Virus record (IMG/VR): IMGVR_UViG_3300030110_001470
Location: 6,305 to 28,193 of that record
Source of the DNA: a virus
Length of the DNA stretch: 21,889 nucleotides
Reading direction: 5' to 3' (one strand)
Positions 436 to 21,749 of this stretch are shown here, in pieces (within the stretch, counting starts at the first letter, position 1; each line of letters starts with the position of its first letter). A model generated the notes under the pieces. It did no database searches and was not told the DNA's origin. It worked only from the letters and a program-made list of their open reading frames with translations. Made by a program: the position numbers and the translations under genes.

Positions 436-1875
436 ATGGGATTTAATACGTCTACAGGTTTATTGGGCTCATATGCTCTAAACCCTATGCCTTCCCCAAC
501 TGTAAGTGATACTAATTATATTGACTTTACGTCATCATCTACAGCTGGTTGGGCACAACAATACTTACCAGAATTGTACGAAGCTGAAATCGAAAGATAC
601 GGTAATCGTTCAATTAGTGGATTCCTTTCAATGGTAGGGGCAGAGATGCCTATGGAATCTGATCAAGTAATTTGGTCTGAACAAAACAGACTTCACATTG
701 CTTACAAAAATGACGCTGTAACTGCTAACTCAACTGTAGTTCTTAATACTACTAGTGGTGCAGTTACTTTAGGTAGTGCTTTAAATAACTCTGTTAGAGT
801 TGGTAACACTGTTATCATTACTGACAATGCAACTGGACTTAAAACTTTAAAGTGTTATGTATCAGCTGTGTCAGGACAAACTTTTACATTAAAGAGTTAT
901 AAGCAATCTGCTTTAACAACAGTAGTAACTGACGGTGGAGCTATCAACGTATTTGTATACGGTTCTGAATTTGCTAAGGGAACTTCTAGCATGTCAGGAG
1001 AGCTTAAGCCATCTTTCCAACAGTATAACAACAGACCAATTATTATTAAAGATCACTTTAGAATCTTTGGTTCTGATACTGCACAAATCGGATGGGTTGA
1101 AACTACTGATGAGGCTGGTCAAACAGGTTATTCTTGGTATTTAAAATCTGCTGGTGAAACTAGATTAAGATTTGAAGATTATCTTGAAACTGCTATGTTA
1201 GAAGCTGAAGAAACTGTATCTGGTAACTTAGATACTTCTGTATCTGATGCTGATGGTACTCCACAATCTGGTATTAATGGTACTCAAGGTTTCTTCTCTG
1301 CTGTAGAGACAAGAGGTAATGTATTTGAAGATTTAGCTTCTTTAGCTGATTTTGATTTAGTACTTAAAAATCTTGATAAGCAAGGTGCAATTGAAGAAAA
1401 CATGCTTTATGTAAATAGAGATTTAGCTCTAACAATCGATGATATGGTTGCTGGATTAAACTCTAACTACCAAGGTGGTGCTTCTTTTGGTGTATTTAGC
1501 AACAGTGCTGATATGGCGCTTAACTTAGGTTTCTCTGGATTTAGAAGAGGTTCTTATGACTTCTATAAGTCTGACTGGAAATACTTAAATGATGCTGCTG
1601 CAAGAGGTGGTTTTGGAGATATCTCTGGAGCTTTAATTCCTGCTGGAACATCTAGTGTTTACGATGAAAACTTAGGTAAAAACATCAAGAGACCTTTCTT
1701 GCATGTAAGATATAGAAGATCACAAACTGATGACAGAAGAATGAAATCTTGGGTTACTGGTTCTGTAGGTTCTGCTTCTTACACTGGAGATGACGTGATG
1801 GAAGTACATTATCTTTCTGAAAGATGTATGATCGTACAAGGTGCTAATAACTTTGTTCTATTGAAAGAATCATAG
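436..1875 (+). CDS. Major capsid protein
   Basis: This is a 479-residue protein, probably of the HK97-fold family, that would form the icosahedral shell. The N-terminal region contains the helix-type segment AQQYLPELYEAEIERYGNRS (40-59), followed by EMPMESDQVIWSEQNRLHIA (70-89), a signature I associate with capsid proteins of Bacteroidota and marine short-tailed phages. Residues ~96-181 are Thr/Ser/Val-rich and look like an extra beta domain. The core resumes at ~190 with KPSFQQYNNRPIIIKDHFRI. The C-terminal half is mixed alpha/beta. There is no N-terminal prodomain of the size seen in HK97, which fits a separate upstream scaffold. Codon choice supports very high expression: all 20 Ile codons are ATT or ATC and none is ATA, although ATA is common in the downstream genes. 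The start at ATG 436 follows an A-rich leader without a Shine-Dalgarno sequence. The stop is TAG. Confidence 0.85.
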   Translation: MGFNTSTGLLGSYALNPMPSPTVSDTNYIDFTSSSTAGWAQQYLPELYEAEIERYGNRSISGFLSMVGAEMPMESDQVIWSEQNRLHIAYKNDAVTANSTVVLNTTSGAVTLGSALNNSVRVGNTVIITDNATGLKTLKCYVSAVSGQTFTLKSYKQSALTTVVTDGGAINVFVYGSEFAKGTSSMSGELKPSFQQYNNRPIIIKDHFRIFGSDTAQIGWVETTDEAGQTGYSWYLKSAGETRLRFEDYLETAMLEAEETVSGNLDTSVSDADGTPQSGINGTQGFFSAVETRGNVFEDLASLADFDLVLKNLDKQGAIEENMLYVNRDLALTIDDMVAGLNSNYQGGASFGVFSNSADMALNLGFSGFRRGSYDFYKSDWKYLNDAAARGGFGDISGALIPAGTSSVYDENLGKNIKRPFLHVRYRRSQTDDRRMKSWVTGSVGSASYTGDDVMEVHYLSERCMIVQGANNFVLLKES

Positions 1876-5138: not shown

Positions 5139-8100
5139 ATGCCTAAAATTCAAAATAGCTTTTTAAAAGGTAAAATGAATAAAGACCTTGACGAAAGGCT
5201 GGTGCCAAAAGGTGAATATCGTGAGGCACAAAATATATTAATTACACAATCAGAATCATCTGATGTAGGAGCTATTGAAAATATACAAGGTAATATATTA
5301 GCCGTACCTATGCCTAGTATTACAGGTGATATGGAAACAATTGGTTACTGTGCTGATATTCTTAGTAAAAAAGTTTTTTGGTTTATTACAGATTTTACTG
5401 GAGATAGTGGGGACGTAAGAACAATGTCTAGAGCTCAGTCTACTAACACTTGTCAAATATTAATGGCTGATTTAAATGATACATCTGCAGAAGCTAAGAT
5501 AATAGTTCAAGGTCATTTTTTAAATTTTAGTAAAGACCATTTAATAACAGGTGTTAACTTAATAGATGATTTACTTTTTTGGACTGACAACTATAATCAA
5601 CCTAGAAAAATAAATGTAACTAAAGCTATTGCTGACAATACATATTATACAAAAGAAGAACAAATATCTGTAGCGAAAGTTGCTCCTTTTTTAGCACCTA
5701 TACTAAAAGACAATGAAGAAAATGGTGATAACTATAGTTTACAAAATGACAACACTATAAGTTCTGATTATTTAAAAGATAGATTTGTTAGATTTTCTTA
5801 TAGATATAAATATGAAGATGGTGAATATACAACTATGGCACCATTTACACAAATTGTTTTTAAACCATTAAATGATGGTCAAATACAAAATGTTTTAACT
5901 ACTGACAGAGAAAAAACAGATACACAAGATGTTTATTCTAAAACTATTGTAGATATTATGAAAAACCACTACAATAGAATAGAAATGAGAATACCTTTAC
6001 CAGGCGATAATTATCAAACAGATCCTAATGTTAATTGGAATAATGATTTAAGAGTATCTAAAATAGAAATATTAATAAAAGAATCTGATCAAGATGTTGT
6101 AAAGGTTATAAAAGAAATAGATGTAAATGATAACGCTGCTTTTGTAGATTTAATAGAATTGATGGATACTAATCCTAATGACGAAAATAATGTTAATCAA
6201 ACTAGTTATTATAGACATGTTTATAAGTTTGTGTATAAATCTGAAGAGCCTTATAAAATACTAGAAGACAAACAAATAACTAGAGTTTTTGATCAAGTAC
6301 CATTAAGAGCTAAATCACAAGAAATATCAGGTAATAGAGTTATATATGGTAATTTTACAGAAAACTATGAAATACCTGTAGATGATTCTGGTAAAACAGG
6401 TATAAATTATGTAATTAAGAATATTGTTAAAGGTAGTATTGATTCATTAACTATGCCTCAAGCTAATAAAGAAATATATAAATACAATTCAGTTAAACAA
6501 AGAAGAAAATATCAAGTAGGGGTTGTTTTATCCGATGTATTTGGAAGACAGTCTACTGTTATATTGTCAACAGGTGATACTGACACTACTACATCTCCAG
6601 CCGTAACTACTGATTTTTCATCAAATTATAATAGCGGTTATAGTTGGTCTGATCAAAATTTAGCTTTTGGTAAATCATTATCTATAATGTTTACAGAAAA
6701 CAATATAGTAGACAATGTTTATAATGGAGATATAACTAGTAATGACTATAACCCATATGGTTGGTATAGCTATAAACTAGTTGTAAAGCAACAAGAGCAA
6801 GAATATTACAATGTATATACAAATCATCCGGCTGATAATTGGAATAATGAATCTAATACTCATGACGAGGTTTTAGGTTTTTCATGGGTTAGTTTATATG
6901 GTAATAATATAAATAAAGTAGTTAGAGACGTTAGTGAAGTTGATGAAATTAGAGAAGGTGTTGCTGGTTCAGATGTAAAACTTTTTCCAAAAGTAATAAA
7001 AAAATCAATACCAATAACTATGCCTGATGGTACCGTTACAGACTTTTTTAGTCCTTTAAACAATATGTCAATGCAAGGCCCTGATCAAGATCCTTTTGAT
7101 GTCATGACTGTCGGTACAGCTAGAGAACAAGGTATATTAACTAAAGGTGATAGAGATAAAGATAGAGTTCATGATTTTGTAATGGCTAAACGAAATCCTT
7201 TATTAGCGCAGGTAAAATCTTTAGGTGAAAATAATAGAGTTAAATATAGTTTAGATTTCACTGTTAATAATAATAACACTGAAGAAAAATCTGAGTTTCA
7301 AATTGGTAATGGTAATGATATAAATCCATTTATTAGAGTTGGACAACAGATTACTAAAAAAGTACTTAATATAAATAGTAAAAAAGCAATAGCATTAAGT
7401 AATATTGGTAAACAAGTTATAGATGTAAGAGTTGATAATGACGAGCAAGAGCATTTTGATTCTAAAACTATTATATTAGACGGTGATGAAATAGACGATG
7501 CTAAAGGTGGTTCTGCAATGATGCAGGTAGGTCAAATAATAGAATTTAGAACTGGTGACTCTCAAGGATTAAATTTAAGTTTATTACCGTTTAATGATTC
7601 TGCTGACAACACTTTAACAGTAGGTTCTGCAGAAGCGGCTTTTTTACAAATTGCTTGGAATAATTCTCAAACTGATGATAATTTAAGTGGTGTTTTTAAT
7701 ATAAGCGGGCCAAACATACCCCTTGGAACTACTATTACAAACGTACAAACCAATAGCACTACTAATATTACAACTATAACAATGAGTGATGCTAGTACAG
7801 CTGCTGTAACATCATATGTTATTGTAAGTGGTGGCGCAGGTGGTAGTAATTTATTTATGGACGAAAACAACTCTGATGAAAATCTTATTAAAACAACAGC
7901 TACTGTTGAGCAACACGGAAATGAGTATGTTGTTAGAAGACCTATATTACAAAAAGTAGAATTAAACGAAGATAGCACAAGAACTATATTACATTTTGAT
8001 AGAAGAGTTTTTCCAGATAATATAGATACTTCTGAAAATAAAAATCAATGTTTAGCTTTATTTGATCCTCTTACAATAAAACAAATTGAAACAGAAAATG

Positions 8101-9671
8101 ATGGTGCGTTAGTATATCAAAAAATAAAAATGTCTCACGAGCATGATTTTAATGCTAACGATCAAATAGTTATACAAAATTTAGAAGAACAACCTATAGC
8201 TGTAACAACAGGTTTAACTGTTTTAGAAACAGATCCTGTAAAATCTAATTTAGATATATTTTACGAATCATCAACAAGTGGTCTTATAAAAGATTTGCAT
8301 AACGATATAGAGTTAAATAACAACGAGTTAGAAATATCTTATTATAATACTTTTATATTATCAGGTGGCGGCAATATAATACCTGTGTTACAAAATGGAA
8401 CTATTACAGATAAAGTTGGTCAATGGCACGTTGAAGAATCAAGAATAAAAGGTGAGTTTAATGGTAAGTCTGTAGATTTTGGTGTTAGAGCTCATTTAGT
8501 AGATGACGAATACGCTCAAAGAGTTAGAACAAATGCTTTAATACACTCAGGTATATTTAATTCTAAAACTAAAGTTAACGAGACAAATCAGTTTTCTATA
8601 GGTGAAAATATAACTAGAGCTGTTGACATACAAAATGGTAGTATACAAAAGTTATACGCAGAAGATACAAACTTAATTATATTTCAAGAAAATAAAGTTA
8701 GTAGAGCTTTAATAGATAAAGACGCTATATTTACACAAGAAGGTCAACCACTTACTACAGCCTCTAAAGTTGTTATAGGTCAAATAGGTGCTTTTGCAGG
8801 TAAATATGGTATAAGTAAAAATCCTGAAAGCTTTGCAGTATATGGTGCTAGAAAATATTTTTCTGATAAAAATAGAGGTGTTATATTAAGATTATCTCAA
8901 GATGGTTTAACACCTCTATCAGACTCAGGTATGCGTAGTTTTTTTAGAGATAACTTGCAAAATGCTAATAGAATATATGGTATGTATGATGAGCAAAAAA
9001 ATAAATACGTTATTTCATTGCAAAACAAACATGGTATAGCTTCTACTTATAGCCCTGAATATGGTACGTCATCTGACTCTACAACAATATCAAAAGATAC
9101 ATATTCAACTTTATCATTTGATGAATCATCAGGTGGTTGGGTTTCGTTTTACACATACAAACCTACATTTGGTTTTAGTTTAAGTAATGAGTTTTATACT
9201 TATAATTTACAAAACTTATATAAACATTATAGCGATGATGTTCAAAGAGGTATGTTTTATAAATCTGTTTATACAGATCCATCTAACGTAGAGTTTGTAT
9301 TTAACGATCAACCAACAACAGTTAAAAACTTTCATACTATAGATTATGAAGGTACTAGTGGTTGGAAAATGGCATCAGCTGAAACAGATATGCATGTGGC
9401 ATACCCTGTGTTGAGCAGTGATACTAGTGTGTCAGCATTGTCTATACCTGTAAACTTTGTAAATAAAGAAAACAAATATTACGGACATATAAGAAATAAC
9501 ACAACAACAACATCAATAAATCAAATAACAGGTATTGATTTATCAGGTATAAAAGGATATTTTAATAAAGTTAAAATGCAGTATTGGAAACCAAGTGAAG
9601 CAATAGCTTCTTCTGTTAGTAAAGGAGAACTATACGCTGTAGGTAGCGAAACTGTTTATTCATCACAATAA
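5139..9671 (+). CDS. Tail stabilization / muzzle-like protein
   Basis: This 1510-residue protein is the second largest in the window. Its N-terminus, GKMNKDLDERLVPKGEYREA (11-30), followed by a segment ending SSDVGAIENIQGN, is a clear signature of the phage 'stabilization' proteins. In crAss-like phages the equivalent protein forms the muzzle that closes the short tail. The chain is mostly beta strands with Asn/Thr-rich loops and has no signal peptide or membrane span. Residues ~823-899 look like an inserted Ig-like module, with PNIPLGTTITNVQ...TTITMSDAST-type strands. Around 1160-1260 a more conserved block contains NLIIFQENKVSRALIDKDAI and a GQIGAFAGKYGISKNPESFA run, which looks like the family core. 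It follows the adaptor gene by three bases and precedes the first ejection-type gene by two, the expected place for the last tail-tube or valve component. Confidence 0.75.
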   Translation: MPKIQNSFLKGKMNKDLDERLVPKGEYREAQNILITQSESSDVGAIENIQGNILAVPMPSITGDMETIGYCADILSKKVFWFITDFTGDSGDVRTMSRAQSTNTCQILMADLNDTSAEAKIIVQGHFLNFSKDHLITGVNLIDDLLFWTDNYNQPRKINVTKAIADNTYYTKEEQISVAKVAPFLAPILKDNEENGDNYSLQNDNTISSDYLKDRFVRFSYRYKYEDGEYTTMAPFTQIVFKPLNDGQIQNVLTTDREKTDTQDVYSKTIVDIMKNHYNRIEMRIPLPGDNYQTDPNVNWNNDLRVSKIEILIKESDQDVVKVIKEIDVNDNAAFVDLIELMDTNPNDENNVNQTSYYRHVYKFVYKSEEPYKILEDKQITRVFDQVPLRAKSQEISGNRVIYGNFTENYEIPVDDSGKTGINYVIKNIVKGSIDSLTMPQANKEIYKYNSVKQRRKYQVGVVLSDVFGRQSTVILSTGDTDTTTSPAVTTDFSSNYNSGYSWSDQNLAFGKSLSIMFTENNIVDNVYNGDITSNDYNPYGWYSYKLVVKQQEQEYYNVYTNHPADNWNNESNTHDEVLGFSWVSLYGNNINKVVRDVSEVDEIREGVAGSDVKLFPKVIKKSIPITMPDGTVTDFFSPLNNMSMQGPDQDPFDVMTVGTAREQGILTKGDRDKDRVHDFVMAKRNPLLAQVKSLGENNRVKYSLDFTVNNNNTEEKSEFQIGNGNDINPFIRVGQQITKKVLNINSKKAIALSNIGKQVIDVRVDNDEQEHFDSKTIILDGDEIDDAKGGSAMMQVGQIIEFRTGDSQGLNLSLLPFNDSADNTLTVGSAEAAFLQIAWNNSQTDDNLSGVFNISGPNIPLGTTITNVQTNSTTNITTITMSDASTAAVTSYVIVSGGAGGSNLFMDENNSDENLIKTTATVEQHGNEYVVRRPILQKVELNEDSTRTILHFDRRVFPDNIDTSENKNQCLALFDPLTIKQIETENDGALVYQKIKMSHEHDFNANDQIVIQNLEEQPIAVTTGLTVLETDPVKSNLDIFYESSTSGLIKDLHNDIELNNNELEISYYNTFILSGGGNIIPVLQNGTITDKVGQWHVEESRIKGEFNGKSVDFGVRAHLVDDEYAQRVRTNALIHSGIFNSKTKVNETNQFSIGENITRAVDIQNGSIQKLYAEDTNLIIFQENKVSRALIDKDAIFTQEGQPLTTASKVVIGQIGAFAGKYGISKNPESFAVYGARKYFSDKNRGVILRLSQDGLTPLSDSGMRSFFRDNLQNANRIYGMYDEQKNKYVISLQNKHGIASTYSPEYGTSSDSTTISKDTYSTLSFDESSGGWVSFYTYKPTFGFSLSNEFYTYNLQNLYKHYSDDVQRGMFYKSVYTDPSNVEFVFNDQPTTVKNFHTIDYEGTSGWKMASAETDMHVAYPVLSSDTSVSALSIPVNFVNKENKYYGHIRNNTTTTSINQITGIDLSGIKGYFNKVKMQYWKPSEAIASSVSKGELYAVGSETVYSSQ

Positions 9672-9673
9672 TT

Positions 9674-10666
9674 ATGAAAGAAAGATTATATTTATTTTTA
9701 GGTTTGTTCTTTGTAACAATACCAGCTTTTGCAATAGAACCAGCAACAGGAACAGCAATGCTTATTAGCGCTGGTGTTAGCGCTTTAACCAGTGTTTTTG
9801 GAGGTATTGGAGCTGGTAGAGCTAGAAGACAAGCTGAAAGAAGAGAAAGAGCAGCCGCCGCTAATCGTATGGCTTTAGAAGCTAATAGAGTAGATCCACC
9901 TGATTTTGGTGCTGATTTTGAAAATCCAGCTGCCAACCTACAAGTTGCAACACAAGCTAACGTAATGGCTGCGGAACAAGCTGATATATCACTAGCTAGT
10001 ACATTAGATACATTAAGAGCTACTGGTGCTAGTGCTGGTGGTGCTACAGCTTTAGCAAGAGCGGCATCTCAAAGTAAAAGAGGTGTTTCAGCTCAAATAG
10101 AACAACAAGAAGCTAGAAATGCTCAACTAAGAGCTCAAGGTGAGTTACAAGCTGCTAAAATAAGACAAGATGCTCAGGTGAGAACTTATCAAGCAACTCT
10201 TGCTAGAGAAAATCAAGCTTTAAATAGAGCTGCTAGTTTAGAAAGTTCTGCTAATCAACAAGCAGCTGCGTATGGTGCGCAGAGTTCACGAATGATTGGT
10301 CAAGCCGTTGGTGCTGTTGGTACATTTGCGGCATTTGGTGGTTTTGGTGAAAAAGGTCCTTTTGCTAAATCACAACAAGATCCTCTTCCTAGCGGTGCCG
10401 ATGTTGATTTAACATCAGGTGATTTTACTTCAGATTTTAACAAACAATTTGGTGATCAAGATTTATATGGAAACTATATATCTGATAAAGCTCAAGAATA
10501 TATAGATACAGCGCCTAATTATGGTAATATAGGCGGGCCTCAAACGCAAGCGTTTGCTGACATGTTAAGTAATATACCTACAAATCCTTATGCTGGAATG
10601 GGTATAACAGACGAAGTATACGATAGTTTAGCACCAATTTTAAATACACCTATTAGAATAAATTAA
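9674..10666 (+). CDS. T7 gp14-like internal virion (ejection) protein with signal-type N-terminus
   Basis: This 330-residue protein probably belongs to the gp14-like internal core proteins, which leave the virion first and form a pore in the host outer membrane. Supporting sequence: a Gly/Ala hydrophobic stretch MLISAGVSALTSVFGGIGAG (29-48), a basic RRQAERRERAAAANRMALEA helix (51-70), the ANLQVATQA segment (87-95), TLDTLRATGASAGGATALAR (110-129), and a long Gln/Ala/Arg coiled coil (~130-220). The C-terminal third is Gly/Asp-rich and probably flexible. Unusually, residues 1-20 (MKERLYLFLGLFFVTIPAFA) look like a Sec signal peptide with an AFA|I cleavage site. An alternative ATG at 9758 would remove it, but the first ATG, two bases after the previous stop, fits the packed gene spacing. 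It heads a trio with the 637- and 2932-residue genes. Confidence 0.65.
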   Translation: MKERLYLFLGLFFVTIPAFAIEPATGTAMLISAGVSALTSVFGGIGAGRARRQAERRERAAAANRMALEANRVDPPDFGADFENPAANLQVATQANVMAAEQADISLASTLDTLRATGASAGGATALARAASQSKRGVSAQIEQQEARNAQLRAQGELQAAKIRQDAQVRTYQATLARENQALNRAASLESSANQQAAAYGAQSSRMIGQAVGAVGTFAAFGGFGEKGPFAKSQQDPLPSGADVDLTSGDFTSDFNKQFGDQDLYGNYISDKAQEYIDTAPNYGNIGGPQTQAFADMLSNIPTNPYAGMGITDEVYDSLAPILNTPIRIN

Positions 10667-10669
10667 ATT

Positions 10670-12583
10670 ATGGCAACAAGAAGAAGACAAAATACAAATC
10701 CATTTATGAGTGCTAATTTAGGTAGTGGCGCTAGAACTACAACGGGTGGAACATATGAAAATCCTAGATTAGGTATACAAGATTATACAGCTTTTGGTTC
10801 TGGTGTAGCTTCTACATTTAGAATGCCAGAAAAAGAAGAAGTAGAAAAGAAAGATGATTTAACTCTTGATTTAGGTGATTTTGAAAGTGATAGAGATGAT
10901 TTTTATGTAGATTCTAACGGTGTTATGCAAGATTTAAATTCTGATGTATCTACTTTAATAAACAACACTTGGAAAGGTAGTGAACTAACATTTTTAAATA
11001 ACGCGTATCAACAAGCACTTGCTGGTAGTCAACAAGAAAGAGATATAAAATCACATTTAAATGGTTATAGTCAAGCTATTGGTCCTAAAGACTCTAATTT
11101 TATTAATTATCTAAATGCTTTAGATAGCGGTATTCATGATCATAATGTTAGTAATAGATTTTTACCTAGTCTTGATGGTGATAATTTAAATGGTACTATA
11201 GCTGATTTTATTAGAATAGGTAACGAAAACCCTAGCGCTATAAGAATAGCTAGTAAAAAAAATAAAAACGGCATAATGCAGTATGGTTATGAAGTTGATG
11301 GTTTAGGATTTGTTAATGCTAGTGCTATGACAGACAAATGGATTAATAAAAACTTTAGTGTTAAATACAGTCAATCCTCAGCGTTAAGCAAAGATTATGA
11401 AGAGTTTCAAATAAGTAAATTTAAACCTATGTTTTATGGTAGTGGTACAAATTTATTTGAAGGAACAGATCAAGAATTTAAAGTTAAAGAAGAAAATGAA
11501 ATAGTACAAGATGGTAGTATAAGCAGTTTTGAATTAACAACTGATAATGCTGCTAATGTTAGGTTTTCTTCACAAAATGATCCTTATTTTAAATCAGCTT
11601 ATTATAACTTAGACAGCGCTATAGGTGGTATAGGTAACATTACACTTACTGAAGATGGATCTGGTGGTTATACTATTAATTATCCTGAAAATTCTAAATT
11701 TAAGTTTTCTTCTGAAATAGAAAAAGCTATGGGTGATTTAGTTTTTTCCGACAATGTATCTCAACAAGATCAAGATGCTTTAAAAATAAGTATGTTAAAA
11801 GATCATTATAAAGAAAACTTTAAACTTACAAATGGTAGCAACATGTATGTAAAGGGAAAAGATGGTAGAGCTATAGCAAAAACAGCTTCTAATCTAGAAC
11901 AGTTTATGCCTGATTACATGAAAACAGAGCAAAAGACTGGCGAAGGTGGATTTAGTTTTGGATTTGGAACTGGTAGTGGTGGTAGTGCTGACTACTATGT
12001 TGCAGGTTTACAACAACTTTATGGAACAATAAATCCTGATACAGAACAAAGACAAGGAGGTATTGTAAATAAACAAGGTGGCGTGCCTTTAGAAAAAGTT
12101 GCTGATTTTGCTCAAGAATGGGGTGTTAAAACACATGGCGCTGGAACAAAAGTTATGTCGATAATGCAGATAGAAGAATACTATAGAGATTTATATAATT
12201 ATGACGACGCTAAACAAAGTAGTAGAGACAATAATAATCCTGGTAAAGATCAAATAGACGGTATGATAACTGATTTATTTAAACAAGAACCATCATATTT
12301 CTATTATGTTCCTTCAGGCGGAAAAGATCCTATACCTGCTGAGAATTTAGGTAAACTTCCAGATATGAGTAGTTTAGAATATGAGAAAATCAGAACAGGT
12401 ATGATAAATAAACCAAAAGGAGCTAATGTGGTTGAGTATTTCCCATCTGATTTTAGAACTATACCTATTAATAGTTTTATGAGAGAATATAGAAACAGCT
12501 TAAGTTCTACTGAAAAGAAATTATTTGAAAGCGCTGCTTCAAGAATGGGTATAAATATATACGGAGTACAAAAAGAAAATTAA
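10670..12583 (+). CDS. Putative internal virion (cargo) protein, gp15 position
   Basis: I do not recognise the sequence family of this 637-residue protein. The N-terminus is basic and Asn/Gly-rich (MATRRRQNTNPFMSANLG), likely disordered. An acidic segment follows, with EKEEVEKKDDLTLDLGDFES (54-73). The rest is a mix of helices and strands with many Asn, Ser and Tyr residues, a Gly-rich patch around 420-440 (GFSFGFGTGSGGSADYY), and no signal peptide, membrane span or recognisable catalytic motif. Its place between a gp14-like gene (3-base gap) and the giant gene (5-base gap) matches gp15 in the T7 gp14-gp15-gp16 order, where gp15 lines the periplasmic conduit for DNA. That parallel rests on order and relative size, not on visible homology. 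A cargo protein of the crAss type is an equivalent reading. Confidence 0.5.
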   Translation: MATRRRQNTNPFMSANLGSGARTTTGGTYENPRLGIQDYTAFGSGVASTFRMPEKEEVEKKDDLTLDLGDFESDRDDFYVDSNGVMQDLNSDVSTLINNTWKGSELTFLNNAYQQALAGSQQERDIKSHLNGYSQAIGPKDSNFINYLNALDSGIHDHNVSNRFLPSLDGDNLNGTIADFIRIGNENPSAIRIASKKNKNGIMQYGYEVDGLGFVNASAMTDKWINKNFSVKYSQSSALSKDYEEFQISKFKPMFYGSGTNLFEGTDQEFKVKEENEIVQDGSISSFELTTDNAANVRFSSQNDPYFKSAYYNLDSAIGGIGNITLTEDGSGGYTINYPENSKFKFSSEIEKAMGDLVFSDNVSQQDQDALKISMLKDHYKENFKLTNGSNMYVKGKDGRAIAKTASNLEQFMPDYMKTEQKTGEGGFSFGFGTGSGGSADYYVAGLQQLYGTINPDTEQRQGGIVNKQGGVPLEKVADFAQEWGVKTHGAGTKVMSIMQIEEYYRDLYNYDDAKQSSRDNNNPGKDQIDGMITDLFKQEPSYFYYVPSGGKDPIPAENLGKLPDMSSLEYEKIRTGMINKPKGANVVEYFPSDFRTIPINSFMREYRNSLSSTEKKLFESAASRMGINIYGVQKEN

Positions 12584-12588
12584 ATAAT

Positions 12589-15500
12589 ATGGTAATTCCT
12601 GGAATACAAGAAGAACAAGAAGTTTTCGGACCTGAACAAGCTCCAGAAAAAGATCAGTTTATATTAGAGCCAAAAAAAGAAGAGCCAGAATATGTATTTG
12701 AACCTTTAAACGATACTCAAATAAATTCTATAATTTCTTTACCAGATCAAAAAGAAGAAGTTGGTGATATATTTTCCGCTGTTAGATTTGTTGATAAATC
12801 TTATAATACTATTGTTAATAATTTAAGTAAAAATTATAATGATGATGGTTTTGTTTTTGAGTATGATCCTGGGTTTTCTCAAAATGAAAATCAATTTATT
12901 GTAAGAGCTAATAATGGAGCGGCTATAGGTGTTGGTAAAAATGAACAATCTATTAAAAGTATGCTTAATTGGATGAGTGAAAACTCTCTTAATGCTGATG
13001 AAAGAGAAATATATAGTGAAAGAAAAAAATCAATTGATAACTCTATACAAGATTTTTTTAAAAATGATATAAGATTTAAAGACGGCCAAGTTCAAACTTA
13101 TGCTAATTTTTTACCAGATTATAAAGGTGGCTCAGGTACAAAAAAAGATCAAAAAGACAGATCTGTTGGTGATTTTAATTATGATGATCAGTTAAAAAGA
13201 TTAAAAAAAGAATTAAACGTAGACGGTACTAATTTAGAATATTATTTTGATGATGAGTTTGAAAAAATAGGTAAAAGATACCATGATAATTATTTAGAAG
13301 ATTTTAATAGAAAACAAAGAATAAAAAGAGAATCAGTTAGAGAAGAAGATGATGCTATAAATATTAAAAATGATTATAAAAAAATTAATTATACTGATAA
13401 TGAAATAAAGTTATCAGAAATAAATAAACAAATAGATTCTTTAAAAAATGAAATGTCTCAACCTTCTTATGGTTTAAGAACAGGCACTATAATTGATGAT
13501 GATAAATCTAGTCAAATAGAAAAGCTGCAACAACAAAGAAATAATTTATTAAATGTAATAGGTAATTCTAAAGGTTGGCACGGTTCTTTTTTAACAGGTT
13601 TAAATTTTAATAAAGAAAACGCTTTAAAACCTGCGTTTACTTTAGATGGTGATTTTGTAGACGGTCTTGCTGTAGATGAAGACGAAGATACTATTAATAA
13701 TGATGATTTAATGACAAGCGCTAATAAATTTAGTAGCTTAGTTCCTGATGAATTAAAAGATAAATCATCAATAAAAGATTATTTAACTGACAAAACTGAT
13801 GAAATAGCATTTAATATAGCTGCTTCTAATAAAATAGGTGATGATTTTATAACATTAAAAGGACTTAGATCTGATAGTAGAGGCTATAAAAAAATAATAG
13901 AAGATTTAGAATATACAGATTTTAAAGAAGAATATAAACCTGAAGATCCTACAGAAACTAGCATTGTTACATTAAAAGTTAGATTATCTGATTTAGCAAA
14001 ACATAGAAACACTATATTTAATCCTTCAGAAAGAAACATAATAGAAGATGCTAAATATTATCTTTCATTTTTAAATCCAGCTGCTTACGGTAAAGAAGAT
14101 GAAGTGTTAAGTACCGATGATATGTCTGAAGCTCAGCTTTATACTTATGTTAGTCAGTATGCTAATTTTAGAAAACAAAACATGTCTGACTTTAAAGTAT
14201 TAATGGCTTTAACAGACTTACAATTAGATCCTAGAAGTTATAATAAAAAATTTGGATCAGAAACAATAGACGCTATAAAAGCTGGTGGTAATTACATTGC
14301 TAATACTTGGAGTATAGAAGCTGCTGAAAAAGCCGGTATGAATCTTAAATCAGATTTTAATAATAAACTACAGCTTCAATTTGATACATATGACTGGGCT
14401 AAAGGTAATGAAGGTATTATAAACAAAAATGCAATAGGTACTTTACAAAAAAGTATGCTTTACGAATACGGTTATCAAATGCCTCTTGAGTTTACAGAAG
14501 ACCTTGCTAAATTTGCTCTAGTTGGTAAAGGTATTGGTAGTGTTCAAAGAGCGTTTAATATAGGTGGTAAAAATTATACTTTATTTAAAACTGTAAGAGG
14601 AACAGGTCCTAATAATAGAGTTAGAGTTTCAGCTGCTGAAATTAAAAAATTTAAAGAAACAAATAATTTAACAAGTTTATCTGGGCCATTAGCTTTAAAA
14701 GCAGCTAATAAAGCAGGTTATACAGTTGAATTAAACAAATATACTAATCTATATAAGTACGGTTTTGGTATTATTGGTGAAGAATTTAAAATGAAAACTG
14801 TTTTTGAAGAAGATTATAAAGTTGGTGGTGGTACTGCTTTTTATGCCTTTGGAGGTGCTTTTGGTAGATTTGGAACAGGTTTAACTAAAGGATTAGGAAC
14901 TGGATCAAGAAGGTTAAACACAGTTATAGGTGTTCCATATTCTGGTTTAGCTTTTGCTACTTCTAGTGAAGCAGCTAAATTATTAGAAGGCGGATGGAAA
15001 ACTCTTAACGGTGGAGAAACATTTGCTAAACAATTAGAAAATGCTTATCCAAATTATCAAGGTGATAGAGAGTTTATAGGTAATATGATTTTTGGTAGTA
15101 TGCTTAGAATAAAAAGTATAACTGGTGAAGTAATTAAAAATCCTTATGCAAACTCTTTAACTTCAACTGCTCAACTTGATAATATAATACACAACGGACA
15201 CGCGTCTTTACGTAGAATAGAAAACGATTACAGAGATCTTGAAACATTATTACCTGAAAACATAGCGTTTAAAGATCGTAAAAAAGAATTAGAGTTAGAA
15301 CATCAAAGAACTACAGAGCTTATTAGTGATGCTAAGCAACAGCTAATATTAAGCGAAGGCGATGTATATGATACTCAAGATCCTAATAAAATAGCAAAAC
15401 ATATAACAAAAACTTATAAAGGTTATTTTGAAAGTTTAAGTAAAGAATATAAAAATGTAGAATTAGTAGTCCAACAAGGTAATAAAGGTTTTGCAGAAAA

Positions 15501-18500
15501 AGGTTTAAATCCTCTTGATCCAGCAGGTATAGTGTTTAAAAACGGTGGTGTTGTAATTGGTGTAAATACTTTGACAGCTAAAAGAGGTATGATAGAGCAT
15601 GAAATAGGTCATGAGCTATTAAAAAGAAAACTTAAAAATGATAAAACATTAGTTGGTAAATTAGTCAACGGTATTGAAGATGCTTTTAAAGGTAAAATAT
15701 TTACAGAGGGCGACAAGCAGTATACTTCTTTTAGAGAGTATATAAAAGATTTATATACTGAAGATGGTAAAGCTCCTACTAAAAAACTAACTGACATAGA
15801 GTTTATAACAAACGCTATAGAGTTTATGGCTGATCCTATTTATTATAGAAATGTTCTTAGACAAAACAATAATGGCAGTTTAACAACTTGGTCTATATTA
15901 AAAGATAAATACAGTACATTAACTGGTGCATCACCCGAACTATTTGCTGATAAAAAATCTATAATAATGGCCTTTGCTAGAACAGTACAAGAACTTAAAA
16001 AAGGAAATATTACTTCTGAGTCTATGAGGTTTTTTGAAAATTTAGCTAATAGAAAAGGTAAATTTGCAAGTAAAGAGTTTGATTGGTTAGATAAAGGCAC
16101 GCAGTTCAACGATATTAAGTTAAGAGAAACTCAAGAAACTAATGAAGCTTTTCGTAGTAAAGAAAAAGAAGTAGATGCTTTAGTTGGTGAAAAAGTTAAT
16201 GGTAAATATACTGTTACTAAAGCAGAGTGGGATAATCCAATAAGACCTGGTAGCGCTAAAGCTTTTGATGCTCTTTATACGCCAAAAGAATCTAATATAT
16301 TTAGAGGAATAATATTAAAAGGCATAGAAGGTAATAATGTTTACGGTAGATCCAAAGACGCTTTTGTAGAAAGAGTTACTTCTGAATTAGCTCGTGATAT
16401 AATGAATTTTAATCCTGAAAAAAATAATAGTTTATCTGGGTATCTTGCTAATAGAGTAATATGGGCTAAAGGTGATATTTTAAATGAGTTTGCAAAAAAA
16501 CCATTTGAAAAAAGTAGAGATGTTGAAGCTGGTGAGCTTGGTAGTGTTCGTGAAAGAGGCGCTGAAGATGTTGGTATAAAAACATTTGAAGACAATTATG
16601 TTTTTGGTGAAAATAAAAAAAATATTGATAAATCTAAAAAAGAAACTGGATTAGTTCAAACTGAAAAAGGTCTTATAGAGCCATTAGAAATAATAACACC
16701 AAAACCAACTAAAGACGTAAAAGTAGATGAAGCTAATAAAAAGCAAATTGAAAATATTGAAAATAAAATAGAAGCTGATAAACCCGCTGATTTAAGTGGT
16801 AAAAATATAGCTAACTTAGAGCCAAGTAAAGAATTAGTAGATTTAGTAAAACCTTTATTTGGTAAAAATAGAAAAGATCAAATACAAAACATGATTGACA
16901 ATGGTGAGCTTTATTATAAAGCTTATTTTCCAGAATCAGCAATGTATGGTGAAGGTGTTATACAGCCTGGAAAAAGCTCTACAATGATTTCTAAAGCTTT
17001 TCCTATGTTCTACGTACCAAAAGGTGAAAGAGCTATAAAAGCAACAGAAATAGAAACAGGTAAAGCTGGTACAAAATCAGGGTTAGAAATAAGAGATAGG
17101 ATGCCTTGGTCACAAGCAAAAACTGTATGGGAAAATATGTCTTGGTCTGATTTAAAAATAGCAGATTTAAAATCTAATGATCTTGCTTATAGAAACCAAG
17201 GAACAGCTTTAAATAGTTTTTATAAACAAGCCGCTAAAGTTATAAATAACAGAGGGGTAAGAAAATTATTAGATAATGAAAAGCTTATACAACAACTTGC
17301 TGACGGTAAAGGAGAGTATATGGCTGCTAAATTAAAAGATGGTTTAAACGATATTAGATCTCCTTTTGGAAAAACTTATGAATCTAGTCTACAAGCTATT
17401 AATTTGTATCAAAGAAACCCATCAGATTTTAGAAAAAGATTTCCTAATGAATGGAAAATAATTAATAATTTATCTAATAATTTAGGATTTGGATTAAAAA
17501 ATGTTGAAAATGCTACTGGTTTTGTTGAAGCTGTTAAACAATTTAAACTTAATAGTACTACTGCAAAAAAATTTGGTATAACAAACGAAGAGTTTCAAGC
17601 GGTTATTGGTGAGGTTTCTTTTTTACAAAGAAGATATGATGGTAAAGATTATAATTTAATAAACGTTGAAGCGGCTACAACTTATAGTAAAAACGTAACA
17701 GAATTACAAGCTTACTTATCGAACAAGTTCGGTGAAACTTTTTCAAGATCATTATTAGGTGACCACTATAGAACTAATATGGGTGGTATAACAAATGCTA
17801 AAGCAAAACAAAAGTATGGTGAGTATGCTGATGGAAGTATTGTTAAATTTGATAAAGCTCCAGAGTTTTCAAAAGTATATGATAAATCAAAACAAGTTGA
17901 TAAAGGTGGGTTTTTTAACAATATATCTGAAGTAACTTTCAAACAAATAAACTCTCTAAAAAATTCTTATGACAAAGCTAATAAACTTGTAGAGCAAGGA
18001 AAAATAAAAGAAGCTAACGAGGTTTTAGATAAAGCTTTTAGTGTTCTTGATAATAATGCTAGAAAAGAAATATATAACAGTTGGCAAAAATCTAAAGAAG
18101 CTTGGTTAAATTCATCTACAAGTAAACAGCAATGGCTTGAAAGAGCTAAGCATATATTGTTAATGGGTAGAAACAATACTAATGTTGAAGCTGGTGAAAG
18201 ACAATTAGCTGAAGTTGTGGCTGTATATAGAGGTGATGTTGTAGGTATTACCAAACTAGAGCATGCTAAGCCAATGGTAAAACAATCAGTTGACGCTGCG
18301 TTAGCAGTTATAAATGGTGAGTGGAGTACAAAAGGTGAACAAATAATGAAAGACTTTAAAGGAATAATTGGTCCTAAAAGTTTGTTTAATATTATAGATT
18401 TAGTTGGTAAAACAACTAATCCATCTGGTATGGCTAGGATGGTTTTTGATTTTGAATCATTAAAAGATTATCAAGTTGTAGGTACTGAAAAAAGTCTATA

Positions 18501-21387
18501 TGACGTCTTATCTGAAAGATCTCTTGCTATAGTTGGTAAAGACTTAAGAAAAGAAGGATTATTACATTTAAAAGATCAGTTAATACAATTATCATTAAGA
18601 GGTGAACAAGCTGACATTATAATAGCTGAAAATGCTATTAAAAACTCTGATAAGTATAAAAGATTGCACAATAAAAATGCTAATATTTTAGAAAATATGG
18701 GCTTTAGTTCTAAAGGCAAAACAAATATGGAGATAATTGAAAAGTTATCAAATATTGATAAAGCTATTAGAATCGCTAAAGATCCTAATAAAGTAAAAAA
18801 AGGTATAAGTATTTTTGATTTTGATGATACTGTTGGTAGAACAAAATCTAAAGTAATATATGAAATGCCTGATGGTACTAAAGGAAAAATAAATGCTGCT
18901 GAGTTTGCGACTAGATCTACAGAACTAGAAGCAAAAGGAGCTAAATTTGATTTTTCTGAGTTTGATAAGGTTGTTGATGGAACACCTGGGCCTTTTATAA
19001 ATAAACTTAGGAAAGCAGTTAATAAATTTGGAAACGAAAATGTATTTATACTAACAGCTAGACCTCAACAAGCGGCTATACCTATACAAAAGTTTTTACA
19101 AAGTTTAGGTGTTAATTTAAAAATAGAAAACATAACTGGATTAGCAGACGGTAGGCCAGAAGCTAAAGCTCAATTTATAGTTGACAAAGCAGCAAAAGGT
19201 TATAATGATTTTTATTTTGTTGATGATGCATATAAAAACGTACAAGCTGTACAAAAAGTTTTAAATGTTATAGATGTTAAATCAGATGTGCAACAAGCTT
19301 TTTCTGCTAAAAATAAAAACTTAAATAACGATATAAACTCTATAATAGAGTACGCTACAGGTATAGGTAAAGAAAAAACTTATAGTAAAGCTAAAGCAGA
19401 AATAACTGGTAAAGGCAAAAAGAACTGGTCTTTATATATGCCTAATAGAGCTGGTGATTTTTATTCTCTTACAAACGCTTTATTAGGTAAAGGTAAAAAA
19501 GGATTAGAAAACAGAGAGTGGTTTAAAGAAAATTTATCAAAGCCGTTTTCAAGAGGTGATTTAGCTTATCAAACAGAAAGAAGAATTAAAATGGCTGATT
19601 ATTTTGCTCTTAAAAAGCAATTAAAAGATGCTGAATATGAAGCTGGTTTATTAAATGTATTTAAGAAAAATCCTTTAAAGAAGCCTTTTGAAAAAGATAG
19701 TAAATGGACTAATGAACATGCTGTTAGAGTATATAATTGGAATAAACAAAATACTTTACCTACAGATATATCTAAATCTGATGTAAAAAAACTAGTAAAT
19801 CATGTAAATAATAATCCTAAGTTAAAAGCGTTCGCTGAAGAATTAATAAAAATAAATAAACAAGATGGATATCCAGCTCCTAAAGAGTTTTGGGTTAGCG
19901 AAGGTATAACACAAGATATGTTAACTAGCGGAGAAAATGTTAGTAGAAAAAGACATATGAAGCAGTTTATTGATAATGCTAATATTATTTTTAGTCCAGA
20001 AAATTTAAATAAAATGGAAGCCGCTCTTGGTCCAACATGGAGAAGAGCAATGGAAGATGCTATAGAAAGGATGAAAACTGGTACTAATAGACCTAGTTGG
20101 GGAAGAGGTAATAAATGGGAATCAGATATACTTGATTTTATGAACGGTTCTATTAGTGGTATAATGTTCTTAAATGTAAGATCAGCTATATTACAGCAAG
20201 TATCTATACCTAATTACATAAATGTTACTGATAACAACCCGTTTAAAGCTGCTAAAGCTTTTTCAAACTTTCCACAATTTGCAAAAGATTATGTAAAGCT
20301 AATGAATGATTCATGGTCTAGAAACCGTAGAGATGGTTTAAGATACAATATACAAGAATCAGAGATAGTAGAAGCATTGTCAAGATCAAAAAACAAAGGA
20401 GCGGCAATTATTGATTGGGCTCTTAAAAAAGGTTTTGTATTAACTAAATATGCTGACTCACACGCTACTGCTTTTGGTGGTGCTAGTTTTTATAGAAATA
20501 GATTAAATACTTATAAGAAAAAAGGTTTATCTGAAAAAGAAGCTGAGCAAAGAGCTTTAGAAGACTGGAGAGAAATGTCTGACGGTACACAGCAAACATC
20601 AAGAATGGATAGAGTTAGTCAAGAACAAAAAAGTGTAGCTGGTAGATTAATACTTCCTTTTAGTAGTGTTCAATTAGCTTATGGTAGAAGATATATTGAT
20701 GATCCAGCTAGAGATTTAATTAACGGTAGATACGAAGGTTTAATAAAAGGTGAAAACTCTGCTCTTAAAAAAGTTGGTCAAATAGTATATGGTACAGTTA
20801 TTCAAGGCGCTGTATTCCACGCGTTACAACAAGGTGTATTTAAAGTATTATTTGAAGATGGCAATACACTTGATGGTGAAGAACTTGAAGTTGCTAATGC
20901 TACTTTAGATGGTATATTAGTGGGTATGGGTATAAGAGGTAAAGCATATGCAACGTTTAAAAACTGGTTAATTAAAGCTGGAAAAGAACTTCAAAAAGAT
21001 AATCCAAAACTTAGAGATACAGCATCAGATTTATTAAAAGTATCACCACCTATTGATAAAAAATATAGACAAATAAGAGGTGCGTTAGCAACATTAGATT
21101 ATGATATGGATGAGATGAGTGAAATAAGTTTAGATAACCCAGGGCTTGCGGCTGCAGCTGGAATTATTGAAGCTAGTACAAACGCTCCTGTTGACAGATT
21201 ATTAAGAAAAATGCAGAATGTAAAAGCTGCATTAGAAGAAGATAGAGCTAATTGGCAAAGACCATTTTTATTAGGTGGTTGGGCTGAATATGACTTTGAA
21301 GAAGATGATAGATCTACAAATACATTTAGAGGTTTTACACCAAGAAAATTTGAAAAGAAAAAATTTAAAAGAAGAAAAATAAATTAA
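12589..21387 (+). CDS. Giant polyvalent virion protein: zincin motif, HAD phosphatase domain, LPD38-like C-terminus
   Basis: This is an uninterrupted 2932-residue protein, probably packed in the head and ejected into the cell. Order of visible parts: acidic Glu/Pro-rich N-terminus (1-60); coiled coil (~262-325); Gly-rich hydrophobic segment (~747-800) that could contact membrane; second coiled coil (~872-925); metallopeptidase-like module with H1004-E-I-G-H1008 and candidate third ligands E1071 or E1078; possible sigma-region-2-like pair of helices (NFNPEKNNSLSGYLANRV, 1273-1290); charged Lys/Glu linker (~1340-1405); long helical region of unknown role; complete HAD phosphatase domain (D2077-F-D2079-D-T, T2156, K2193, D2212-D2213); C-terminal part with SISGIMFLNVRSAILQQVS (~2519-2537) and GRLILPFSSVQLAYGRR (2685-2701), similar to the phage 'large polyvalent protein' domain LPD38; basic tail. 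It holds the gp16 position after two ejection-type genes. I see no RNA polymerase or transglycosylase motif. The next start overlaps its stop (TAATG). Confidence 0.7.
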   Translation: MVIPGIQEEQEVFGPEQAPEKDQFILEPKKEEPEYVFEPLNDTQINSIISLPDQKEEVGDIFSAVRFVDKSYNTIVNNLSKNYNDDGFVFEYDPGFSQNENQFIVRANNGAAIGVGKNEQSIKSMLNWMSENSLNADEREIYSERKKSIDNSIQDFFKNDIRFKDGQVQTYANFLPDYKGGSGTKKDQKDRSVGDFNYDDQLKRLKKELNVDGTNLEYYFDDEFEKIGKRYHDNYLEDFNRKQRIKRESVREEDDAINIKNDYKKINYTDNEIKLSEINKQIDSLKNEMSQPSYGLRTGTIIDDDKSSQIEKLQQQRNNLLNVIGNSKGWHGSFLTGLNFNKENALKPAFTLDGDFVDGLAVDEDEDTINNDDLMTSANKFSSLVPDELKDKSSIKDYLTDKTDEIAFNIAASNKIGDDFITLKGLRSDSRGYKKIIEDLEYTDFKEEYKPEDPTETSIVTLKVRLSDLAKHRNTIFNPSERNIIEDAKYYLSFLNPAAYGKEDEVLSTDDMSEAQLYTYVSQYANFRKQNMSDFKVLMALTDLQLDPRSYNKKFGSETIDAIKAGGNYIANTWSIEAAEKAGMNLKSDFNNKLQLQFDTYDWAKGNEGIINKNAIGTLQKSMLYEYGYQMPLEFTEDLAKFALVGKGIGSVQRAFNIGGKNYTLFKTVRGTGPNNRVRVSAAEIKKFKETNNLTSLSGPLALKAANKAGYTVELNKYTNLYKYGFGIIGEEFKMKTVFEEDYKVGGGTAFYAFGGAFGRFGTGLTKGLGTGSRRLNTVIGVPYSGLAFATSSEAAKLLEGGWKTLNGGETFAKQLENAYPNYQGDREFIGNMIFGSMLRIKSITGEVIKNPYANSLTSTAQLDNIIHNGHASLRRIENDYRDLETLLPENIAFKDRKKELELEHQRTTELISDAKQQLILSEGDVYDTQDPNKIAKHITKTYKGYFESLSKEYKNVELVVQQGNKGFAEKGLNPLDPAGIVFKNGGVVIGVNTLTAKRGMIEHEIGHELLKRKLKNDKTLVGKLVNGIEDAFKGKIFTEGDKQYTSFREYIKDLYTEDGKAPTKKLTDIEFITNAIEFMADPIYYRNVLRQNNNGSLTTWSILKDKYSTLTGASPELFADKKSIIMAFARTVQELKKGNITSESMRFFENLANRKGKFASKEFDWLDKGTQFNDIKLRETQETNEAFRSKEKEVDALVGEKVNGKYTVTKAEWDNPIRPGSAKAFDALYTPKESNIFRGIILKGIEGNNVYGRSKDAFVERVTSELARDIMNFNPEKNNSLSGYLANRVIWAKGDILNEFAKKPFEKSRDVEAGELGSVRERGAEDVGIKTFEDNYVFGENKKNIDKSKKETGLVQTEKGLIEPLEIITPKPTKDVKVDEANKKQIENIENKIEADKPADLSGKNIANLEPSKELVDLVKPLFGKNRKDQIQNMIDNGELYYKAYFPESAMYGEGVIQPGKSSTMISKAFPMFYVPKGERAIKATEIETGKAGTKSGLEIRDRMPWSQAKTVWENMSWSDLKIADLKSNDLAYRNQGTALNSFYKQAAKVINNRGVRKLLDNEKLIQQLADGKGEYMAAKLKDGLNDIRSPFGKTYESSLQAINLYQRNPSDFRKRFPNEWKIINNLSNNLGFGLKNVENATGFVEAVKQFKLNSTTAKKFGITNEEFQAVIGEVSFLQRRYDGKDYNLINVEAATTYSKNVTELQAYLSNKFGETFSRSLLGDHYRTNMGGITNAKAKQKYGEYADGSIVKFDKAPEFSKVYDKSKQVDKGGFFNNISEVTFKQINSLKNSYDKANKLVEQGKIKEANEVLDKAFSVLDNNARKEIYNSWQKSKEAWLNSSTSKQQWLERAKHILLMGRNNTNVEAGERQLAEVVAVYRGDVVGITKLEHAKPMVKQSVDAALAVINGEWSTKGEQIMKDFKGIIGPKSLFNIIDLVGKTTNPSGMARMVFDFESLKDYQVVGTEKSLYDVLSERSLAIVGKDLRKEGLLHLKDQLIQLSLRGEQADIIIAENAIKNSDKYKRLHNKNANILENMGFSSKGKTNMEIIEKLSNIDKAIRIAKDPNKVKKGISIFDFDDTVGRTKSKVIYEMPDGTKGKINAAEFATRSTELEAKGAKFDFSEFDKVVDGTPGPFINKLRKAVNKFGNENVFILTARPQQAAIPIQKFLQSLGVNLKIENITGLADGRPEAKAQFIVDKAAKGYNDFYFVDDAYKNVQAVQKVLNVIDVKSDVQQAFSAKNKNLNNDINSIIEYATGIGKEKTYSKAKAEITGKGKKNWSLYMPNRAGDFYSLTNALLGKGKKGLENREWFKENLSKPFSRGDLAYQTERRIKMADYFALKKQLKDAEYEAGLLNVFKKNPLKKPFEKDSKWTNEHAVRVYNWNKQNTLPTDISKSDVKKLVNHVNNNPKLKAFAEELIKINKQDGYPAPKEFWVSEGITQDMLTSGENVSRKRHMKQFIDNANIIFSPENLNKMEAALGPTWRRAMEDAIERMKTGTNRPSWGRGNKWESDILDFMNGSISGIMFLNVRSAILQQVSIPNYINVTDNNPFKAAKAFSNFPQFAKDYVKLMNDSWSRNRRDGLRYNIQESEIVEALSRSKNKGAAIIDWALKKGFVLTKYADSHATAFGGASFYRNRLNTYKKKGLSEKEAEQRALEDWREMSDGTQQTSRMDRVSQEQKSVAGRLILPFSSVQLAYGRRYIDDPARDLINGRYEGLIKGENSALKKVGQIVYGTVIQGAVFHALQQGVFKVLFEDGNTLDGEELEVANATLDGILVGMGIRGKAYATFKNWLIKAGKELQKDNPKLRDTASDLLKVSPPIDKKYRQIRGALATLDYDMDEMSEISLDNPGLAAAAGIIEASTNAPVDRLLRKMQNVKAALEEDRANWQRPFLLGGWAEYDFEEDDRSTNTFRGFTPRKFEKKKFKRRKIN

Positions 21388-21749
21388 TGAATAAATTAGC
21401 GATAGTATTATTTTTTACGTTGAGTATTACTAACGCACAAATACAAGATGACAAAAAGCTACATTTTGCAGCAGGCGCAATAGCAAGTACTGTCGGATAT
21501 GAATATGTGTATAGCAAAACAGGAGATAAAAACCAAGCTTTAGCAGCTGGTGTGTTAACATCTATGATTGCTGGTATAGGTAAAGAAGTTTATGATTCGT
21601 TTCAACCAAAAAATAGATTTGATCAACAAGATGTAGCCGCAACAATATTAGGCGGTGTAACTGTTAGTCTTACAATAAAACTTAATTTAGTAAACTTCGG
21701 TAAAGAAGCAAAAAATAAAAAAAAGAAAAACAAAAAAAATGAAAAATGA
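21387..21749 (+). CDS. Exported membrane protein, YfiM/DUF2279-like
   Basis: This 120-residue protein has an N-terminal signal peptide (MNKLAIVLFFTLSITNA|Q) and then DDKKLHFAAGAIASTVGYEY (22-41). The DK.LHF.AG opening and the two Ala/Gly-rich hydrophobic helices (~26-40 and ~49-65), followed by DQQDVAATILGGVTVSLTIK (79-98), are typical of small YfiM/DUF2279-type envelope proteins found in Bacteroidota and their phages. Their biochemical role is unknown. The C-terminus is a Lys/Asn-rich basic tail (about 15 residues). Translation is probably coupled to the giant gene, because the ATG shares its A with the upstream TAA, and to the next gene through an ATGA overlap. A role at the host envelope, in lysis or in DNA entry, is possible but not shown. 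A holin is less likely because the first hydrophobic stretch is a cleavable signal. Confidence 0.55.
   Translation: MNKLAIVLFFTLSITNAQIQDDKKLHFAAGAIASTVGYEYVYSKTGDKNQALAAGVLTSMIAGIGKEVYDSFQPKNRFDQQDVAATILGGVTVSLTIKLNLVNFGKEAKNKKKKNKKNEK

Follow-up and report, generated by a model that had tools for sequence, protein, structure and literature searches.

What does a phage gain from a single late protein of nearly three thousand residues, and does this protein travel in the particle? The question is raised by a giant gene in the window analysed here, a stretch of 21,889 nucleotides corresponding to bases 6305-28193 of the 28,193-base virus record IMGVR_UViG_3300030110_001470. The gene and its neighbours, in window coordinates, are as follows.

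436..1875, plus strand: major capsid/virion structural protein (phrog_13704), which served to place the phage
5139..9671, plus strand: virion structural protein of 1510 aa (phrog_14478), in the late block upstream of the giant gene
9674..10666, plus strand: protein of 330 aa, also in the late block, no assigned function
10670..12583, plus strand: 637 aa protein directly upstream of the giant gene, no assigned function
12589..21387, plus strand: giant late gene for a polyvalent-type protein, one ORF of 2932 aa without internal stop
21387..21749, plus strand: 120 aa ORF overlapping the giant gene stop, the last gene before the contig end

At the composition of the window (31% GC) a run of 2932 stop-free codons is expected by chance with a probability of about 1e-118, and the GC content of the gene is 0.126 at the third codon position versus 0.427 and 0.335 at the other positions; the ORF is thus coding, and the single uninterrupted gene of the original prediction stands. 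In the translations of two genes on contig L008 located mostly before the window, the terminase gene (L008:1051-3120) and the gene preceding the capsid gene (L008:5560-6399), there are four undetermined residues apiece, which suggests short assembly gaps or masked bases.

The protein itself was divided as follows, where the domain names rest on alignment, structure models and profile matches.

12589..15369, plus strand: N-terminal stretch of ~927 aa with poor conservation, in which neither a Pfam match nor a transglycosylase was found
15370..16050, plus strand: predicted zincin-type metallopeptidase domain, aa ~928-1154 (alignment, model, structural alignment)
15598..15612, plus strand: HEIGH (HExxH) motif, aa 1004-1008
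15799-15801, plus strand: candidate third ligand E1071, invariant in the alignment
16252..16512, plus strand: putative helical domain resembling sigma-70 region 2, aa 1222-1308 (aa 1194-1304 in the structural match)
18793..19284, plus strand: predicted HAD phosphatase domain, Pnkp 3'-phosphatase-like, aa ~2069-2232 (alignment, model, structural match, PHROG)
18817..18831, plus strand: HAD motif I, DFDDT, aa 2077-2081
19051..19062, plus strand: HAD motif II, LTAR, aa 2155-2158
19165..19167, plus strand: lysine K2193 as candidate for HAD motif III; both it and K2200 are invariant in the alignment
19222..19227, plus strand: HAD motif IV, DD, aa 2212-2213
19285..21384, plus strand: predicted all-helical C-terminal module, highly conserved, with a fold common to phage polyvalent proteins

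To evaluate these assignments we searched IMG/VR with a profile of the HAD domain plus the C-terminus, which matched at least 496 stretches of viral contigs, and aligned 74 full-length relatives from this database (2277-3353 aa), whose choice did not depend on the zincin. E1005, H1008 and E1071 were invariant in all 74 aligned proteins and H1004 was found in 70; four giant proteins (L028, L043, L055 and L066) display EExxH instead of HExxH. Only 0.009 chance occurrences of HExxH are expected in the giant protein, and by sequence the region holds the HExxH helix and downstream Glu of a zincin metallopeptidase. A model of aa 860-1560 (pLDDT 68) showed a helix, three strands, the HExxH helix and a Glu helix, in keeping with a minimal zincin and in the same order described for the metallopeptidases of polyvalent proteins (PMC5512222). 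Comparison of this region of the model with lethal-factor-type folds gave Z values of 5.5-6.5, middling by the tool's own scale, a match that is suggestive but not decisive; Peptidase_M78 was weakly matched in 6 of 53 relatives.

The HAD catalytic residues D2077, D2079, T2081, D2212 and D2213 were likewise invariant (74/74). As chance would produce about 0.6 copies of DxDxT alone in a protein of this size, it is the conserved residue set and not any single motif that constitutes the evidence. In the AlphaFold model of aa 2044-2912 (mean pLDDT 74.7) motifs I, II and IV each follow a strand and the predicted fold is a Rossmann HAD, so that the conserved motifs I-IV (DFDDT, LTAR, K and DD) on a Rossmann core place the domain in the HAD superfamily, by sequence and model. 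The top-ranked structural matches to the region were HAD enzymes, the best being the 3'-phosphatase of T4 Pnkp (Z 10.3, rmsd 2.4 over 119 aa), followed by NagD-like, acid and phosphoserine phosphatases (Z 7-8.4). Moreover, PHROG 415 'polynucleotide kinase' was the only PHROG matched by the HAD of the window (E 2.8e-4), with giant relatives matching down to E 4.1e-6 and solo HAD relatives down to 2.3e-11, and Pfam DUF2608 weakly matched 32 of 39 HAD segments. By these sequence and structure relations the domain is specifically Pnkp-3'-phosphatase-like. Motif I (DxD) and motif II (S/T-x-R) line up with the phosphatase domain of T4 polynucleotide kinase/phosphatase (PseT); unlike PseT, no kinase domain was matched in the giant protein, the HAD is fused into a late gene of more than 2000 aa and identity is 14%. 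When HAD plus C-terminus was compared to the PDB, a profile search of the sequences gave no meaningful match and Foldseek nothing below E 0.2, with weak HAD matches and otherwise mostly generic helical proteins.

Zincin and HAD motif sets thus co-occur in the 74 relatives, and both are under strong constraint. Both motifs that had been read from the letters, the HExxH and the full HAD set, sit in the expected predicted folds, which is the check that had been proposed for them. The HAD also occurs in other settings: Bacteroidetes and Flavobacteriaceae contigs (L192-L198) carry solo genes of ~170 aa related to the fused domain. In two relatives (L005:12300-12740 and L007) an ART-like segment (PF18760, E 0.14-0.22) interrupts the HAD, separating its motif I from motif II; at this site L056 has a different insert of ~140 aa and L075 has a shorter one.

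The original domain inventory, borne out for zincin and HAD, missed a third module. A sigma-70 region-2-like domain was found in 41 of the 74 members, always between zincin and HAD. Among the structural matches to the model of aa 860-1560, the nine confined to ~aa 1190-1305 were all sigma factors (Z 5.4-6.7); 6uu9, the tenth sigma match, overlaps that region with a poor rmsd of 15.8. At the profile level, hhalign of a 24-sequence segment family versus 28 sigma region-2 sequences gave a score of 35.1 (probability 85%), the maximum of 200 column shuffles being 16.9, and when sliding windows along the protein (n=98) were compared with sigma the four best all fell on this segment. The copy of the window joins the segment family at E 2e-17; its subclade taken alone did not reach sigma factors (probability 1.5), the similarity being clear in the L067-type subclade, and no Pfam Sigma70_r2 match was listed for the domain. 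This putative assignment, made by profile and structure for the family and weak in the subclade of the window, is the least secure of the three. Separate sigma-70 region 2 genes (~251-274 aa) occur away from the giant gene in contigs L005, L014, L034 and L044, with weaker matches in L017 and L085.

Conservation is strongest in the C-terminal module, where even distant members are ~45% identical, and the N-terminus varies greatly. The model of HAD plus C-terminus matched by fold many phage proteins, several of them named polyvalent, with E values from 3e-12 beyond its own family; alignments span at least 800 columns, aligned ranges not given, and the C-terminus probably carries this match. The C-terminus had been called LPD38-like. 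This was rejected as a sequence identity: the Pfam model of LPD38 (PF18857) matched none of the 42 aligned members to which it was applied, that of the window included, although it detected the positive control, gp69 of Burkholderia phage JC1, at 1.4e-34, and hhalign of the two profiles gave 0.3%, inside the null. What remains of the claim is a predicted C-terminal fold matching that of polyvalent proteins.

The gene had also been said to sit where T7 encodes gp16. As a positional analogy this is right, both being large late proteins near the end of the structural genes. Homology to gp16 is unsupported: the first 1000 aa gave no Pfam match to a lytic transglycosylase domain of the T7 gp16 type, and the N-terminal regions of seven members matched nothing in Pfam.

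We then analyzed which phages carry the gene. The capsid and portal proteins matched only phages of Flavobacterium, Cellulophaga, Maribacter and Tenacibaculum and one metagenomic phage, which places this marine phage in the neighbourhood of Pervagoviridae and Pachyviridae. Since all cultured phages matching the major capsid and portal infect Flavobacteriia, the host is probably a member of the Bacteroidota, as originally proposed. The same capsid-protein family was present in the 49 relative contigs with the giant gene that were tested (49/49), and 43 of 45 had the giant gene 9.9-15 kb downstream of the capsid gene in the same orientation, the two exceptions being compatible with circular permutation of the contig. 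A scan of bacterial and archaeal genomes recovered relatives of the full module in metagenome bins of mixed names, Flavobacteriaceae bins included; these are probably stray phage contigs. The solo HAD genes came from the same scan.

At the syntenic place, isolates and one metagenomic genome encode a giant protein of 1691-3859 aa. In the Pervagoviridae/Pachyviridae phages phi38:1 (gp101), Calle, elemoE and phi19:3 (gp129) it shares the position at the end of the late block and is annotated as 'structural', an annotation taken as deposited. The syntenic gene of MW202828 (L088:741-12320) is annotated 'reticulocyte binding/rhoptry' and has two HExxH motifs, and that of Maribacter phage Panino (L089:16229-21718) 'tRNA methyltransferase'. 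Unlike the protein of the window, the four syntenic giant proteins scanned for the HAD motif set (MW202828, Panino, elemoE and phi19:3) are without it, the five compared, phi38:1 included, gave no match to the conserved C-terminal module, and the sigma-like domain was absent from the giant proteins of the compared isolates. The only module demonstrably shared with the compared relatives is the zincin, homologous to that in the giant protein of Flavobacterium phage elemoE (hhalign 95.7%). Because these genome-deposited relatives are without the HAD set and the C-terminal module, a virion location, which the annotation of their syntenic proteins would indicate for ours by analogy, is carried over across a module swap.

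Several unrelated domains are joined here in one polypeptide encoded with virion genes, which is the architecture of the phage polyvalent proteins surveyed by Iyer et al. 2017 (PMC5512222), and in this respect the polyvalent-type protein first proposed is supported. Shared with them are the huge single chain of unrelated enzymatic domains, a zincin as hub domain, the virion-gene context and a predicted helical C-terminal fold; what differs is that our protein has no LPD38 by sequence and combines a Pnkp-like HAD with a sigma-2-like domain. The main text of that survey (PMC5512222) contains none of the terms HAD superfamily, haloacid dehalogenase, phosphatase and sigma. A protein of this kind, the DarB-like gp69 of phage JC1 (4515 aa), was detected in virions by mass spectrometry with 51 unique peptides (PMC9144972). 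The other precedent is the virion RNA polymerase of coliphage N4 (PMC12633501). This ejected protein of ~3500 aa has a role in the first transcription; its C1 subdomain bears a zincin motif and precedes a large C2 that is for the most part alpha-helical. The giant protein similarly has a zincin and then a large helical C-terminal part, ejection being what we propose for it, but no RNA polymerase domain was matched in it, and where N4 has a whole polymerase it has a sigma-region-2-like domain and a HAD.

Taking the domain findings together with the N4 and JC1 precedents, the best reading is a virion-packaged polyvalent protein, ejected at infection, of an uncultured flavophage clade related to Pervagoviridae, to which we give about an even chance of being correct as a whole. 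Since hundreds of uncultured relatives keep the gene at the same late position, carriage in the particle and injection with the DNA are probable. The conserved helical C-terminal module would dock or package the chain in the head, and at infection the whole chain would be ejected together with the DNA. The zincin may then cleave the chain itself, releasing working pieces, or a host protein; the sigma-like domain might touch the host RNA polymerase and help in the reading of the first phage genes, and the Pnkp-like HAD could strip 3'-phosphates from ends that host nucleases leave, for example in nicked DNA or cleaved tRNA. Acting in this way the protein would be the early effector originally proposed. 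In its fullest form, which we hold tentatively and consider possible but doubtful, a virion-delivered chain would capture the host RNA polymerase on entry through its sigma-2-like module, accompanied by a protease and a 3'-end-healing phosphatase, a strategy like that of the N4 polymerase which borrows the host enzyme instead of bringing its own. We found no described case of a virion-delivered sigma-like domain in the literature searched.

Other explanations were weighed against the packaged polyvalent protein. The position of the gene at the end of the late block, and a C-terminal module so much better conserved (~45% identity in distant members) than the N-terminus, would also suit a mainly structural or ejectosome protein, like T7 gp16 or the C-terminal domain of the N4 polymerase, whose helical parts form a DNA conduit and whose zincin and HAD folds are kept for processing or structure and not for action on the host; yet the D, D, T and DD of the HAD and the E/H/E of the zincin are invariant in 74 divergent proteins, which favours catalysis over relic folds and makes this explanation unlikely. 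Rather improbable is a late cytoplasmic protein that is never packaged and serves assembly, for example as a maturation protease, or late host shut-off: metallopeptidases could process head proteins, but the syntenic giant proteins of isolates are annotated as structural and the precedents that share this syntax belong to the virion (PMC9144972, PMC12633501).

The protein could, in turn, be packaged and injected with different activities, its HAD acting on nucleotides, a phosphoprotein or a signalling molecule and not on 3'-phosphate ends, and its sigma-2-like domain being a convergent helical bundle. Sequence does not reveal the substrate of a HAD, the structural matches continue with NagD-like, acid and phosphoserine phosphatases (Z 7-8.4), and the sigma match exists at profile level only. 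Pnkp nevertheless heads the structural matches and the window HAD matched no PHROG other than 415, and we regard this alternative too as having a rather small chance of being right.

The giant protein is real and widespread, and its combination of modules adds to a polyvalent theme already known. With at least 496 matching stretches, and one capsid clade in all 49 contigs tested, it appears as a common tool of one flavophage group, carried by no record detectable by tblastn of the whole protein among 50,697 phage genomes. To our knowledge, little is known of the takeover mechanisms of Bacteroidota phages. The protein yields domains that can be expressed separately and, if the packaged polyvalent reading is true, it would provide concrete activities (end healing, processing and contact with RNA polymerase) for the first minutes of infection by a Bacteroidota phage.
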